In this document: positions 23,321 through 36,100 of the stretch, piece by piece
How the letters are laid out: each line of letters opens with the position of its first letter
Position numbering within the stretch: position 1 is the first letter of the stretch
DNA from: Tubulanus polymorphus
Lineage: Eukaryota; Nemertea; Palaeonemertea; Tubulaniformes; Tubulanidae
Length of the DNA: 64,000 bases
Direction: 5' to 3'
Assembly: GCF_964204645.1 (NCBI RefSeq)
Contig: NC_134025.1
Coordinates: 27,682,001 to 27,746,000, forward strand
The notes under the pieces: model-generated
Told to the model about the DNA's origin: nothing
Seen by the model: the letters and a program-made list of their open reading frames with translations, nothing else
Database searches by the model: none
Program-made: the position numbers and the translations under genes

Positions 23321-23443
23321 AGACTGGATCTAAGATTTCGATCAGTCAGTCGGCATCATCGATTTGTGAATCATGGAATTACGATTACCTCTGCTGCTGT
23401 TACTTTCCTTTGGAAGAAGTACGAAATTATTCTTATCGATACA
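23321..23443 (+). pseudogene. Broken duplicate of GFM2 exon 2
   Basis: Positions 23375-23443 match GFM2 exon 2 (27853-27921) with about 7 differences in 69 bases, and 23321-23374 match the end of GFM2 intron 1 (27724-27770). The two parts are joined directly, so 82 bp of the source, including the splice acceptor and the first 56 bases of the exon, are missing. The copied frame runs [12 protein letters not shown] and then hits a stop soon after the homology ends. Without an acceptor it cannot splice as the original does. Because intron sequence is included, this is a DNA-level duplication and not a retrocopy. Confidence 0.85.
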
Positions 23444-27111: not shown

Positions 27112-30100
27112 ATGCTAGAGTCCATTGTTAGTTGCAATAAGCTTCTTATGAAACAGAGTTCACTGTTTCGTTCGATGTCGAATCCTTGCTGGATGAGAAA
27201 AGTGAAAATTCATTCGTTTAATCAAACTGATAGCGATGATATCAAACGAATTCGAAATATCGGAATCATGGCGCATATTGATGGCGGTAAAACTACAACT
27301 ACAGAACGTATGCTTTATTACTCTGGATTGACACAACAATTAGGTAAAACCGCTACTAATAGTATAGTATAGTATGAATGGATCATCAAGACTTTAAGTC
27401 ATGAACATTGTAAATTTCTTTTTGAGGTTGCTGGTAATGTACTTACACTAACTTTATATGAAAACTAATTCTGAAGTTATACTATTTGGATTCTATTGTT
27501 TACATCTTTCTCTTAATTGCAGCGATTCCTCTTTAGGGAGACAGTTTGCCAATACCATACGATGTATCAAAATTCTTTTCTTTTGTCATCTTATATTCCT
27601 TTACACAATTATTCTCAGCTTGTAGTAATGGTCCAACGATGACTTAGTATTCACTCCTTTGCCTTAAACTTATATACCGATTCTTCTAGCTTTCCTCATA
27701 TATAAATAAGACTTCATAGATAAAGACTAGATTTCGATCAATTAGTCGGCATCCTCGATTTCTGAATCATAAAGTTTTATGATTTTGTTTTTTCAGGTGA
27801 TGTGGATGATGGAGACACTGTCACGGATTATATGGAACAGGAAAGAAATCGTGGAATTACGATTACCTCTGCCGCTGTTACTTTCCTCTGGAACAAGTAC
27901 AAAATTAATCTCATTGATACACCTGGTGAGTGAACTACTACTGTTTCATATGGCTGAAGATTGGGCCAAGAATTGCTTACCATTTGATAAACATAGAATT
28001 GTTTAGTGTAAATCTATATTTTGCGATGAAAATATGAAATCTGATTTGTCCACCTGATCAAGAAAATCTGGTACTCTTTACTCTTAAGTTATCCTAGAAT
28101 TACGTTTCATGTTGATGTAAAAATTAGGCGAAAAGCATTTCTTAGTCTCCCAATATCCATCTTCAGCGCCTCACGTTTTCTGTCTATTATCCTCAAACGC
28201 ATCAAAGTGATGGATAAAAAACTCATTCTTATTCTAATCAAATACTTTATTAACAACTCTACAACAATATGATTAAATGCATTATCATGCAAACTTTAAA
28301 GCACCATTTGATAATTTTAACATCGAAAATTGGATTCTTATTTAAGTGTTTCTGCTAAGAACCTTCTTAATTTCCTCGGCCACGTAAACGTTATCCAGCT
28401 TTCGTCGTTTTCCATCGTTCATCAATTTCTGACAAAGTTTCACGAGACGTTCTTCCAATTTTCGTTTTTGAGTGAACGGACTTGTATTGCTCGATCGACA
28501 TCGCTTGTTTGAGAACCACACTTTGACTTGATGCACCGAAATTCCCGCCGTTTTCGCTAGATATTGTTTTTCGATTTCGGTCGGATACGGATTTTCGATA
28601 TGTTCGTGATACCACCGAGACATCGTTTCAACCGCTTCTTCCGATAGCGGAGACGATCGCTTTTTCTTCTTCGCAACTTTCGATTTCTTGAGTTCGCCGA
28701 GTACCGTACTGGGTGCGCAGCTAGTGAAATCCGCGGGGATTTCAACACAATCTTGAAGCGCGGAATATTGCGAGAATATTTCACCGGGAGGCACTTGAAG
28801 CGAGACGGATTTTGAATCGACGATTGCTTCGTTGTAATCGCTGGTATCCAGAAAATCGAGATCAAACTTCGGGACATCGCACAATGCATTCAGTCGAGTA
28901 CTGGCGTAATCTGCGGTGAAGTCGAATTGTGGCTGTCGATCTATGAATTCATAACCGCATTGAGGTTGATCAAGATTTAAAGACGGTGTCCGATTATCTG
29001 ATGTCAGCTGAGTAGATGCTTCCAATAATTCATCGTTGAATTTGATGAGATCTTCAATACTTGTAGCAACTTCTGGTAGTTGATTACAGTCGATTATTTC
29101 TTCCCTCTGTGGTGATTGAAGCTGTAGGCTGGTTTCATCGCTGTAGTATGCAGAATCTGAAGCAGTGTAGTCGATGCAGTTGACGAATTCTTCCATCTCT
29201 TTGAAAAACATATCATATTCTGAAGACTGTTGATCGTACATTTTGTGGAACTTGCTGTTTTATTCAGTGTACTGAGAAAATACTGATGTCTTCAACATTT
29301 TTCCAGGTTTATTTATATGAAATATGAAATTTGGCAGAGATTCTCAAATGTCATTTGTCATAAAACACTTACCACAATTCAACTGCAGTGAGTTAAGTGA
29401 ATAATGTTTAGCTACTTAGTGTGAATTAAGTTCACTAATTAATCAACTTGGGTTGATTAGATTTTGCTAATTATCCAGAGGAATTGTAATAAAAGCTAAT
29501 TAGTTCAATCAATTTGTTCAATCCGTTTGTCGGCTAATTAGCTGTTCTGGCAATTTTTTTCTAATTTTATCAAAGGATGTACCTCCCTGTCTCATCTTGT
29601 GTCTGGATGGAATGCCTATTTTTGTACACTGAATTAAACATGACAAGGGCTGAACAACAGTTCCGGTATCTTTTTGTCCGAGACAAGATTGACTGAGATT
29701 GCTAGGCAAACACACGAAATGGTAAGAGCTTTTTGTCAACCAGCAGCGAGACATTCCTAGAATCATTAGAAACATCATTGGTTACACAGTGGAACCTCGG
29801 ATGAATCGTTGTATCCGAGTTGGTTATAATGAGGTTCCACTGTATCATTGTTTTAGTTGTCAATTCTACGTGCTAGTTCTGATTTCACTTATTTAATCAA
29901 ACCTACTAATTATCATGGATAATCAGAACCCTTAAATTACCTTTGGTTAATACCATTCACTAATTATCTTAATTTAATGATCACTCAATTACATACTTAA
30001 TTAGCCAAAACTGAATGAAATGTGATAAGTTCTGGTGAGTGAGAATGATATTAAACTCGATGTCCCAGTTTTAAGACATCGTTATGTTCAGAGGTGAACT

Positions 30101-33100
30101 TGCTTGACAAGTCATGTGTTTGAACGGAGGTGTATTTTTCAATGATGGAAAACTAAAGTAAAGTCTACGTGCTTCACCTTATGACTGTTTTGACACTGCA
30201 TCAATCACTGGTAGGGTCATAATCTGGTTATAAACTGCTAGTTACTGAATGTCGTGTTCAACATATTGTAGCAGCTACTCATCTGAGACATGGCAGAGGA
30301 AATCGCTGAGATCACATCTCATGTTTTCCCTGATCATGATTTTATAGATCAAGAGCCATTACACAAATTCCCAACTTTCTTGCCTTCTCTTAAATAACCA
30401 AGAATTATTCACCGTACTGAATATTCCGAATATTCAATTCTATTGAAATCCCCGCTGAGATTCTACAAGAATTCATCCACAGATAAACAATTTTTCTCTC
30501 AACTATCAGGAGAAGCTGTTGAAGCGATGTCTCTGCGGGTATCATGATCATGTTAATAAATTATACCCTTCAGATGATGAAAAACACTGTCTAGTCAGTA
30601 AAGCAGGAATTTTGTGCATCAAGTCAGCATCCTGCTTTAGTTAAAGATCTTTGCTGGGGATAAAGAATGATTAATTTCAGATTCTGTTTGGAAGTTCGAT
30701 TCACAAAATTCATATCAGGACAGGAGACAAAGTTAAGAATAGATTCTGATGGTGAATGAAAGGGAAATCATCTCCCTGTATTCAGAGATTCTGATGCTGA
30801 GTAAAGTCTTATTTCGTCTGCTGCTCCGTGATGATGCTTTTGTTGCCTCTAATTGGCAATATGTTAAATATGATATTTCCTACAACATGAGATGATTGAA
30901 AAATCATGTTTTATTTAATGTTTGAGATAGAACGACATTCACATCAAACATAATATGCATCTACTCAGTATTCCAGTAGTCGGGTTATGTCCCCATCAGG
31001 TTTACACATCAATGAGTTTTTAAACAGTTTATTTTTCTCCTGACAAAATGTTGTCTCTTCATGACTAATATGATTCTATTCATTTCTCAAACTCGGCTAA
31101 AATAAGAACAGACAACATTTATTTTAATTATGCGGTTCCTTCATTTTTAAGTTATCAGGGTTTTTTTCCAAATTCACCAGTTTTCCACACGTGGAAAATT
31201 CTCTAATCTCATCGATGAATATTGAATTACATGTACGTATCACAGATACCACTATTATCAACACCTTCCACTGAACCGCTTTTAATTGAACCGTAATTAT
31301 TATCTACGAGATTCATGTTCGATTGATGGTGCTGTTTGTTGCTGCTATTTCTCTTCGTACTCATATCGGTCAAAGAAGGGTTTGTCGATTTACTGTCCTC
31401 GCGGCAAGTAAACAGTGAGATCAACTCTCCTCGAAATCTCGGGCCACTTATCGAGTAGATATAAAAGTTTGCCGCGTTGTTCGTATACATTAATAGATTC
31501 AGAATGGCCCAAATCAACCAATCGATAGCGTTTTGATGATCTGTATTGGGTTTAAATATGTCTAGATTGTAAACCGTCAGCGGTAGGTTACAGATCAGAA
31601 ATACGAAATTCACGCTGATCAACATCGCGGTCATCGAATTCAAGCGAGATTTCGTAGTCACACCCGACGATGATTTCGTAACTTTCTTCGCGCTCTCGTG
31701 CACTTTCCAGATGATGACGGCATTGCATAGCATCAGCACGACGAACGGAATCAACGCGTTTATACACAAGTCGATCTTCGGCCAGACGTGATCCCACCAG
31801 AAGGATTTTTGCGGCATGCACCGACGGTCGTGCCATTCGACTGTCCACAACATATGCAAATTCAACGTTAATGAGAAGATGAGAAGCGCGAGCATCGTGA
31901 TGAACAATGATTTCATTGTAAGCATTGTTTTTGCCTTTAATGGAACGACTACAACTATCAAACGATGAATCGTCACCGTCACTAATATCCAAACAGAAAT
32001 CGTCACAAATACATACAATAAGTATGTGTGTACAAGACACGTAGTTAATGAGTAAGAGCGTATGTCGTATTTCCAAGTCGCCAAAATCCAATAACGTAAC
32101 AGTCCCGTGTATAGTACGAGCGTGTCGAATATCGCGAGCAATCTCATCAGTATCGAAGTCGGTTTCGAGCTGACCGGTCTCGCGCTGAACACGATGATAG
32201 CGAGGATGTTTCCGATTGTTCCCAGTATTATGATAATCGCCGACCCGTAGATGAGAAGGGAATCGGCGATCTCGGTTTCCACGTACGACACCGACGACGA
32301 TGTTGTCTGATTTCCGCTGATGTTCGCCATGTTTTCTGTTACTGTTGTTGCATCGTGAATGCTGCAATTTTCTGTAAATAGAATTGATATAGAATTAATT
32401 AATCAGAATAAACACTCTTATCCACAAGAACCCTAGATAACATTCTATTGTAAGTCTTTTTTGTATATTGGTATAGAATTCTTACTGGTGTCATCGAATG
32501 AACTTACAAATGATCTCAGGATTAAGGGTTAGGTTCAGGATCAGCAGCCCTATTATGATTCTGTCGACCGCTGTTTATTGCAGCTTTACCTTTGCTCATT
32601 GTTTGGTGTTTAGATATTGAATATTATCATCCAAAAGCAGATGTTTGAATATTCATCATGAAACATGTATCACTTGAAATGTTTGTAGTATCTATACTGA
32701 TTGTGGTTGGAAAACTTTTGAATCATTCATCAACTTTAATGATGATGATGGTGAGAAGTTCAATCCCATCAGTTTCACGAGATCGGGGTTAATCATCATT
32801 TTAAAAAGTCTGCTACAATGAATCCCGGCATAAATCATGATATCCACTTATTCAGTGATTGCATGATTCCGTAATGGAAAAGTATGTTCTTCGTTAATGT
32901 TAAAAGATGACAGATATTTCGGTGCGTGACAAGATCATTATGTGAAATACACATGGAATGATTTCATCAGGATCAATAATTAATCAGAATCAAACCTCAC
33001 ACTATCATTGACTATCGGTCAATCGTCTTACTTTTAAGATTTGAAAAATTCGTGCTCATTTTTAAACTGTTCAACTGAAAGAACTTCGATGAAAAATGTT

Positions 33101-36100
33101 GCCTTGTAACATAAAGTAATATTTACCTCGATAAACAGTTCAATTCTCTGCAGTAAATCAAGTGTAGTTATCCTGGAAGATGGGAAGTTTGTTTGCGAAT
33201 GAACTTTATACACAATAGCAGTTACTATTAAAAGGGGGCTGGGTTCGAGGGTATAGTAGAGAGTTATAAACAGACTCAGCTGTTGGAAGAATAGTTTCTC
33301 CATATCTAATCACTGAATGAAAAGCATTTATATTGTACTACATAGGATAGTAACAGATTTATTGGATGTTTATGAATATTCCCTAATAAATAGAGAAGAG
33401 ATATCGAAAATAATAAATATGATGAATCATGAACGCCACTTAGGTGAACATTCATTGTCTATATATATATATATATATATATATCGTTGAGTATTATGTA
33501 TAATTGCAATTGATAATCATGGTGCAGACATTGATGATGATGATGCCATCAAGTTCGTACATGTGTACCCATTAATTTTGCTGTCCACTTTCCTAATAAG
33601 TGTTCCTTTGTTAATCTGTTGGTCCATAGAATTGGCCTCATCATTACCTATACCAAACATGAATTTAGTTGTTATTGTAGCTGGTTGTTTTTGTCTTCTT
33701 TTTGCTATTCCATTATCTAAGCATTACCTGTTAATATTGACCAAACTGATTTCTATCAAAAACAAACAACTTCTTGTCAACTTCTCAGTCAGTGCAAATT
33801 TGTTTTGTCATAATGTGAGAGCCCTAGATTATTGTTAACCCTTTCCTTTCGATCCAGACGTTTTAGTCTATATTAGTTACCATTTTACTCGAAATGTATG
33901 AAAAATACTTCCGCGTTCTTTACCTGTTATGACACGAGAGTTGTGTTGTGATGTCTTGTTTGCTAACCTATGAGCTATTATGTCTTAAATAGTTCATGGT
34001 AATTAATTACTATTCACTGAACCATTTAAAAGTACTCAATTATCTGATGTTATGCTACATTTGATAGGATTTAGTTAGTGTTTTGCATGTAAGTGTAGTG
34101 TTAATCTTACATAAAATCTATGATATATTCAAATATGTAGGATATTTGTTTAGCAAATCCGTATTCATAACATCATGAACAGTTAAACAGACATCTATTT
34201 GTTGAGCGTTTTTATTTGCCTTATTTTGAATCAACTTGAGTTTTTTCCGCAGTATACATGACGTATTTGGCTTCTATTTGCTTTGTCATGTCATTTATGC
34301 AGATTTCAATTAAGTTCTAAATGAACTGAACATTAAGCGACACCTCGCAGACAATATCAGAATGTTTTTGAACTATTAGACTTTCAACAAAAGCCCGGAA
34401 CATAAATAATGATTATCATTATCCATAACTTCGTAGATGATTTCCTTTTATCATTTTCTGTGGCCATTTCTAAACCGTAAAAACATTATTACCCGCTTGG
34501 CTAGGCGATGATTTAGTTTTCCCGATGTGCAAAATCAATTATGTTAAATGATGCAGAAATAGTGCGTTCGCTAATGGTTTGTATTCATTTAGAATTTTTC
34601 TCACATGAGACCAAGACTGATACTGAACTGAGCATGCTATTTAAAACAAATACATATCCTGGGGTCAGTTGCACAGTTGTGACTTAAGTCCAAAAGTGGT
34701 CTTAAATCATAAGACTGGTCTTAGGTTGTTCCACTGGCTATAGAACTAAGTTGGTCTTAGACTGGTCTTAAGTCTAAGCCATGACTATGCATCCGACTCG
34801 TGCATTTTTTTGTCATTAATATCTAAAATGAAATTGAAATTGTAGAATTGGAGTAGCATTTCAATATTTTTGGGTAGATGTAATATCTTTCTGAAAACAG
34901 TTTTTTATCTCATGTATAAACAGAAATTCTGTTTAAAATGTAGTGAAGGACTCGAACAACCAAATTATTAGATTAAACATCAATCAAATGCCTGCATTGT
35001 TATGCGTTTGACAGTAATATCTCGGTGAATGAACCCTGTGGATCCCTGGAGAGAATGCTGCTATGATACTGTCACTAGTGTCAGTAGTGCATTTACACCA
35101 GAATGGTCAAGTTGTGATCAGAATGAATGTGGCATTTTCATCCACATAAAATGTGCATCATCCGCATTAAATGGCAATATTTCCTCGTTCATTTGACATT
35201 TTCCTGTATGGTAACTTTTTGTTGTTCCATATGCGAGTATCGTAGCAAATCAACGAAGTATCCGAATGATGCTTCCAAGGTTCTTGGCTGAGGAATGAAG
35301 TACCCTTTCATTTAATGAAACCTACGTATGATCGTAATTGTTTCATGGTTTTGTGTTTCCTTACATTTGCATCAACTAGCAGGATTTGCTCTGAAATTAC
35401 CACTCGTCTGAAATATGCTCGGTTAATCCTATTTTGCAGGTCATGTCGATTTTACAGTAGAAGTTGAGCGAGCGTTGCGAGTTCTTGATGGCGCTGTAAC
35501 TATCTTAGACGCATCTGCTGGTAAGACAAGAGAAATTCGTATGAAATGAATAAGTAATCTTATTTGTTTGCCGGTATTTATTTCTGCATCAATTTCGATC
35601 GTCAGTACGGATCGCGTTCTAATGCCTAAGTAATGAATGTGTGTCTACGATCGGCAAACTGATCGAAGAAGAAAGGAAGATTTTCGTATGCTAACAGCAA
35701 AATATCCCGATATCAATGATCATCATCCAATTGTAGCATATTCTCCTCGACATCATACATCACTACTAATCATTCTTTAGCCCGCAATGTCGCGATATCG
35801 CATGCGGCTCTGAAGGTAAACAGGCATATATAATGCGGATAAATAGTCCCGCCGCACAATCCGTTTACAGGGTGACTAAAACTGTTATGTCATCGGACGG
35901 TGAATATCAGACTGCATTCGCACTAACCCAGCATCTTATTTCAATGAAACGGTTCCCTGTTATTATTTTAGAAATATAGATAGATAGATAGTTTATTCTT
36001 AATCAAAGTGTGTACTACACTTGTATGACAGATAATCAAAATTACAAATCTTAACAAAATAATTTAGTCAAAATTACATCTTGAAAAAACAGAAATATTT

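Follow-up and report, generated by a model that had tools for sequence, protein, structure and literature searches.

We asked what kind of gene occupies an intron of GFM2 in the nemertean Tubulanus polymorphus, where this gene came from and in which cells it might act. The gene codes for a TALE homeodomain and bears on the SPILE-type genes, a fast-evolving homeobox group that helps to distinguish the earliest embryonic cells of molluscs and worms. These genes are considered to establish quartet identity during spiral cleavage, but little is known of where they came from or of what controls them upstream. The window (the whole stretch of DNA that was analysed) is 64,000 nt long, and the gene within it is called L007 below; its relatives in the genome carry similar labels.

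A single-exon homeobox gene antisense to GFM2

ORF inspection revealed a reading frame at 28342-29259 on the reverse strand that is open for 305 codons. The L007 coding sequence within it is intact, complete and free of introns, from the ATG at 29241 to the stop codon at 28342-28344. As a stop lies in frame six codons 5' of the ATG, with a TATA box and a TCAGT initiator nearby and AATAAA on the 3' side, an upstream coding exon is not needed. The features are as follows (intron numbering takes as the first GFM2 exon the one whose apparent start Met lies near 27112):

27241-27351, 27797-27925, next from 35440, + strand: exons of GFM2 (mtEFG2)
27926..35439, + strand: host intron, the second coding intron of GFM2, 7.5 kb, donor gtgagt, acceptor ttgcag
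28246..28251, - strand: polyadenylation signal AATAAA, from sequence inspection
28342..29241, - strand: orphan TALE homeobox coding sequence (L007), single exon, 299 aa
28345..28476, - strand: C-terminal flank common to the subgroup, two extra helices predicted
28486..28674, - strand: TALE homeodomain, residues ~190-252, NPYP loop, WFSNKRCR
28687..29241, - strand: N-terminal region, acidic, no PADRE or PBC, STRLxALCDxPKxDLDxL block
29282..29286, - strand: initiator-like TCAGT ~30 nt 3' of the TATA box, inferred start site
29310..29317, - strand: TATA box TATAAATA, from sequence and L010 alignment
29330..29360 (approximate limits), - strand: promoter block conserved with L010, GACATTTGAGAATCTCTGCCAAATTT, from the upstream alignment
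29436..29540, unstranded: TAATTA homotypic cluster, four sites (29436, 29468, 29497, 29535)
29569..29575, unstranded: TCF/LEF-like ATCAAAG, from sequence inspection

L007 thus lies antisense to its host, inside the second coding intron of GFM2 (27926-35439), where the first-pass annotation had placed it as a nested gene on the opposite strand. The same intron holds, on the same strand as L007, an intronless rhodopsin-type GPCR gene (31227-32402, -), and a degenerate copy of GFM2 exon 2 is found at 23369-23443 (+), ~4.4 kb 5' of the real exon. A search of Rfam gave no match, and a bacterial promoter scan, whose model is not relevant to a eukaryote, stayed at chance level. Three phylum-marker models (COX1, the molluscan hemocyanin beta-sandwich and the annelid erythrocruorin linker) had no match either.

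The domain search with L007 returned Homeobox_KN (E 4e-14) and Homeodomain (E 1e-9) and no further credible domain, and the top relatives of solved structure were the homeodomains of PBX1 and extradenticle (E 6e-12). Together with the intact 299-aa frame, these matches bear out the earlier description of a TALE gene with one coding exon and an NPYP loop that lacks PBC domains. When numbered through an alignment with PBX1, the homeodomain reads V47 S50 N51 R55; the canonical Asn47 is replaced by Val, and the homeodomain arm is without the usual Arg5. The pairing of Val47 with Ser50 is typical of paired-class proteins, and judging from these residues the DNA specificity of L007 may have changed. 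The N-terminus contains 37 D/E versus 16 K/R in 196 aa; an acidic N-terminus is found in many activators. After the homeodomain, two extra helices are predicted for L007. The fold search returned ordinary TALE homeodomain matches, and among the matches listed the C-terminal helices had no separate one. The C-terminal flank is common to L007, L010, L008, L013, L014, L016 and L028, and the STRLxALCDxPKxDLDxL block of the N-terminus is common only to L007 and L010.

L007 and its paralogue L010 are 61% identical over 188 aa. Their synonymous sites are saturated, and the overall dN of 0.44 falls to 0.22 for the homeodomain plus C-terminus, which indicates purifying selection. L007 is therefore not a chance ORF.

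The orphan TALE genes and their class

Relatives were collected by scanning the 268-Mb assembly with Homeobox_KN and by a search with the L007 protein. The canonical TALE genes found were TGIF, MKX, three IRX and PBX, plus MEIS and PKNOX exons. In addition, there are ~11 orphan TALE genes (L007, L010, L008, L013, L014, L016, L019, L020, L023, L011 and L028), most of which have an unsplit homeobox, and L025 is an additional, very divergent TALE match. L011 has two homeodomains, and L016, L019, L020, L023 and L011 have in common a ~130-aa region N-terminal to the homeodomain that we call PADRE-like, a label given for its fit to the published description in place and size and not from a sequence comparison. 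With the second homeodomain of L011 and the PADRE-like region of L019, L020, L023 and L016, these genes match the published hallmarks of SPILE genes (PMC8524836, PMC6118893). The published mollusc clades A/C, B and D carry PADRE or a second homeodomain.

Compared with the PADRE-like region of these five genes, the N-terminus of L007/L010 gave an hhalign probability of 0.1%; PADRE is absent there, and a cryptic PADRE domain in L007 was rejected. In L008, L013 and L014 the absence of PADRE was judged by inspection. In a PBC search of the genome this domain was confined to the PBX locus (C7:1.18-1.20 Mb) with none near L007, and hidden PBC exons were thus rejected as well.

Two pairs of orphan genes are closely placed. 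L008 and L010 stand head to head (C1:31218263-31220137) with 1.9 kb between their ATGs, and the 1.9-kb region common to both has TAATTA clusters at its two ends. L013 and L014 (C5:20.74 and 20.775 Mb) are nearly identical (dS 0.037), a very recent duplication. The last 10 Mb of C1 holds five of the ~11 orphan genes (at 22.0, 27.0, 27.7 and 31.2 Mb), a possible loose linkage.

In trees, the homeodomain of L007 fell outside PBX, MEIS, PKNOX, TGIF, IRX and MKX. The homeodomain-only tree paired L007 with L010 (support 95/93) and gathered the orphans to one side of a weak branch (66/83), with the exception of the second L011 homeodomain, so that support from the homeodomain by itself is modest. When the C-terminal flank was included, the orphans used there formed one clade apart from the canonical TALE genes (97/95), with PBX as the nearest canonical class. 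PBX was not the sister of L007 and L010 in the best tree, and uniting the three cost 10.3 log-likelihood units but was not formally rejected (p-AU 0.168). This evidence is moderate, the homeodomain alignments being short and noisy; standard sequences supplied the reference homeodomains of human and fly, with PBX alone checked against PDB alignments.

How does L007 compare with the known groups? Like NfSPILE-A to -E of Nipponacmea and MvSPILE-1 to -13 of Mytilisepta, it is an orphan TALE gene outside the canonical classes, and both sets are multi-copy, fast-evolving and devoid of PBC and MEIS domains (PMC8524836). Its conserved flank outside the homeodomain is also a property of the lineage-restricted orphan TALE clades I-XIX (PMC5322547, PMC6118893). 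The PADRE or modified PADRE that lies 5' of the homeodomain in SPILE clades A/C and D is lacking in L007, which has one homeodomain and not the two of clade B (TALE-IV); since L007 also pairs with L010, by published features it belongs to none of clades A/C, B and D. Clade E (TALE-III) has no PADRE, but here L010, L008, L013 and L014 lack it just as L007 does. L007 is thus E-like by exclusion only, and there are several such genes here versus a single E gene per examined mollusc. Of the two marks of the PBX class, a PBC domain and an intron at 44/45 of the homeodomain, L007 has neither. Taken together, these features and the position outside the canonical classes support the assignment of L007 to the spiralian orphan TALE, or SPILE-like, genes. 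The two-homeodomain and PADRE-like genes elsewhere in the genome likewise favour the SPILE-type identity that had been suggested for it.

Promoter elements in common among orphan TALE genes

The 1 kb upstream of L007 and that of L010 align with a score of 98, versus a shuffle maximum of 59, over a region that covers the TATA box, the initiator and the GACATTT.GAGAA.TCTCTG block. Selection has probably preserved this promoter. We then counted hexamers in the 500 bp upstream of L007, L010, L008, L013, L014 and L019. TAATTA was the top hexamer (28 versus 1.4 expected) and occurred in all six genes; the top 7-mer CTAATTA (23 versus 0.32) and the top 8-mer ACTAATTA (13 versus 0.14) were each present in 6/6 upstream regions. 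These counts come from a grouping of six promoters that was chosen after seeing the data, with few controls. Shared ancestry was limited by taking one gene per lineage (L007, L008, L013 and L019, 4 x 400 bp), and TAATTA still occurred 17 times versus 0.98 expected, whereas 20,000 random quartets matched for AT content reached at most 9. No comparable rise was seen for other hexamers made up of A and T, save those that overlap the TAATTA motif.

All six genes with TAATTA clusters also have a TATA-like box 63-80 bp 5' of the ATG, and in five (L007, L010, L013, L014 and L019) it is followed by TCAGT at fixed spacing, a combination with a background of 0.05 per strand-kb. TAATTA clusters were absent from the controls, namely four SIX genes, GFM2, L026, the GPCR gene (one site) and L028 (one site). 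They were also absent upstream of L016, L020, L023 and L011. For L016 and L011 the sampled sequence may be intronic, and their promoters were probably missed because the sequence used just 5' of the ATG resembles a splice acceptor. Across the genome, triple TAATTA at the tried spacing was rejected as a diagnostic because it is too common, in part through a satellite, and does not exceed its control (1221 matches versus 1429 for the control). It is the combination of TAATTA, TATA and initiator beside orphan TALE genes, and not the cluster alone, that stands out. The sharing of such a promoter among orphan TALE genes is new, and it names candidate control sites for them.

At C1:202653-204506 there is a 42-bp satellite array with TAATTA and a CAAACCACGGTTTG palindrome. 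Upstream of L010 and L013, TCF/LEF sites of the TGATCAAAG type are interleaved with TAATTA sites, hinting at a possible beta-catenin input.

Origin of the gene and a proposed early role

We asked next how an intronless gene of this kind arose. L028 is the only gene of the orphan set found with a split homeobox: its intron lies between Q44 and V45, in phase 0 (NISVNQ|VRSWFSNKR). In this genome PBX is split at the same 44/45 site, and MEIS and PKNOX are split inside W48. The 44/45 and 48 sites are alternating, ancient introns of two groups of TALE partners (PMC6219170). The phase 0 intron that L028 has in common with PBX therefore assigns the orphan subgroup to the PBC side, and this relative supplies evidence from gene structure for a PBX-side origin.

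The first-pass annotation had suggested retroposition from a PBX-type gene. Of this proposal the ancestry on the PBX side stands, given the L028 intron and PBX as the nearest canonical class. A retrocopy, either L007 itself or the founder of its subgroup made from a spliced PBX-side transcript, would account for an intronless gene beside an intron at 44/45 in L028 and PBX, and for a dispersed copy lying antisense in the intron of a host. However, a retrocopy brings no promoter, and L007 has its TATA box, initiator and upstream DNA in common with the ancient paralogue L010. As this promoter is common to both despite saturated synonymous sites, the two genes go back to a duplication of DNA, promoter included. 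Moreover, no poly-A tract was seen in the stretch inspected 3' of the AATAAA signal. For these two reasons retroposition was rejected as the origin of the L007 copy, and a retrocopy at either level is unlikely. In the tree the intron-bearing L028 also falls within the subgroup, a weak sign that introns were lost more than once (p-AU 0.094). Loss of introns in an ancestor more likely explains their absence from L007; such loss, possibly repeated and possibly selected for fast early transcription, accounts for the data at least as well as retroposition.

Could L007 then be a divergent PBX paralogue, outside the SPILE radiation, that lost PBC and competes in a dominant manner at PBX/HOX sites? 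It resembles PBX/extradenticle in its top solved matches, its WFxNKR core and the PBC-type intron of L028. Nevertheless, PBX was not its sister in the best trees, Asn47 and Gly50 of PBX are Val and Ser in L007, PBC is lacking, and the C-terminal flank is that of other orphan TALE genes and not of PBX; we consider this reading highly improbable. A later role, such as one in larvae or in regenerative tissue, would be in line with the six non-SPILE orphan TALE genes expressed in operculum regeneration of Spirobranchus (PMC6118893) and with the lack of PADRE in L007. In contrast, the short intronless unit and the TATA/Inr promoter, common with the PADRE gene L019, resemble the earliest zygotic genes (PMC3743134), and a later role also has the odds against it.

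The reading that we favour, with a probability of about 0.68, is a SPILE-like, PADRE-less gene from the PBX side, duplicated at the DNA level, that acts as an early zygotic blastomere-specific factor. L007 would belong to a spiralian-specific expansion of orphan TALE genes, in a PADRE-less subgroup with a single homeodomain and its own C-terminal helical flank. In its PBX-side ancestry, loss of the PBC domain would have been followed by loss of the 44/45 intron, and the subgroup would have spread by duplication of DNA. Factors bound at the TAATTA cluster, 200-300 bp 5' of the ATG, would switch L007 on in particular blastomeres, a transcript of ~1.05 kb would be made from the TATA/Inr promoter within short cleavage cell cycles, and the protein would bind DNA through its TALE homeodomain and specify blastomere fate by way of its acidic N-terminus. 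That expression is zygotic and early, that it is specific to certain blastomeres and that the protein is an activator are what we infer from sequence and from comparison with known systems.

In a limpet, SPILE genes are expressed in a staggered, blastomere-specific manner and help to specify quartets (reviewed in PMC8524836), and zygotic onset of SPILE A/C and B falls at the 4-16-cell stage (PMC8524836). In Owenia, >10 unclassified TALE genes go up at zygotic genome activation (PMC12550047). The earliest zygotic genes of Drosophila have a median length of 1.2 kb, are 54.6% intronless and are TATA-enriched (PMC3743134), and avoidance of splicing has been put forward as the explanation (PMC3989599). 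Such pre-MBT genes (PMC3743134) are not homologous to L007 and serve as a comparison of how it may work; like them, it is short and intronless with a TATA promoter, and its inferred ~1.05-kb transcript thus favours an early zygotic blastomere factor.

The presence of one kind of promoter at L007 and in at least five relatives suggests that these genes may be switched on jointly in the early embryo. In the proposed grammar, (A)CTAATTA sites form a homotypic cluster within ~400 bp and are followed by TATA and, after it, by the TCAGT initiator. That it forms one early zygotic switch for PADRE and non-PADRE orphan TALE genes alike, possibly within a cross- or auto-regulatory blastomere network driven by the SPILE proteins themselves, is a tentative proposal with somewhat less than even odds; the SPILE proteins are suggested as drivers because the recognition helix of the L007 type, with V47, S50 and N51, resembles that of paired-class readers of TAAT. 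If true, the common switch would open to direct test the unsolved question of how quartet-specific genes are turned on during spiral cleavage.

Finally, the PBX gene has three tandem candidate exons for the homeodomain from residue 45 onward (L046 nt ~1490-2010; C7 ~1.2005-1.2010 Mb). They read VCNWFGNKR..., VSNWFGNKR..TLSK and VSNWFGNKR..NIGKAQEEANLY, each with a splice acceptor before it, and may be mutually exclusive homeodomain exons that differ in their tails.
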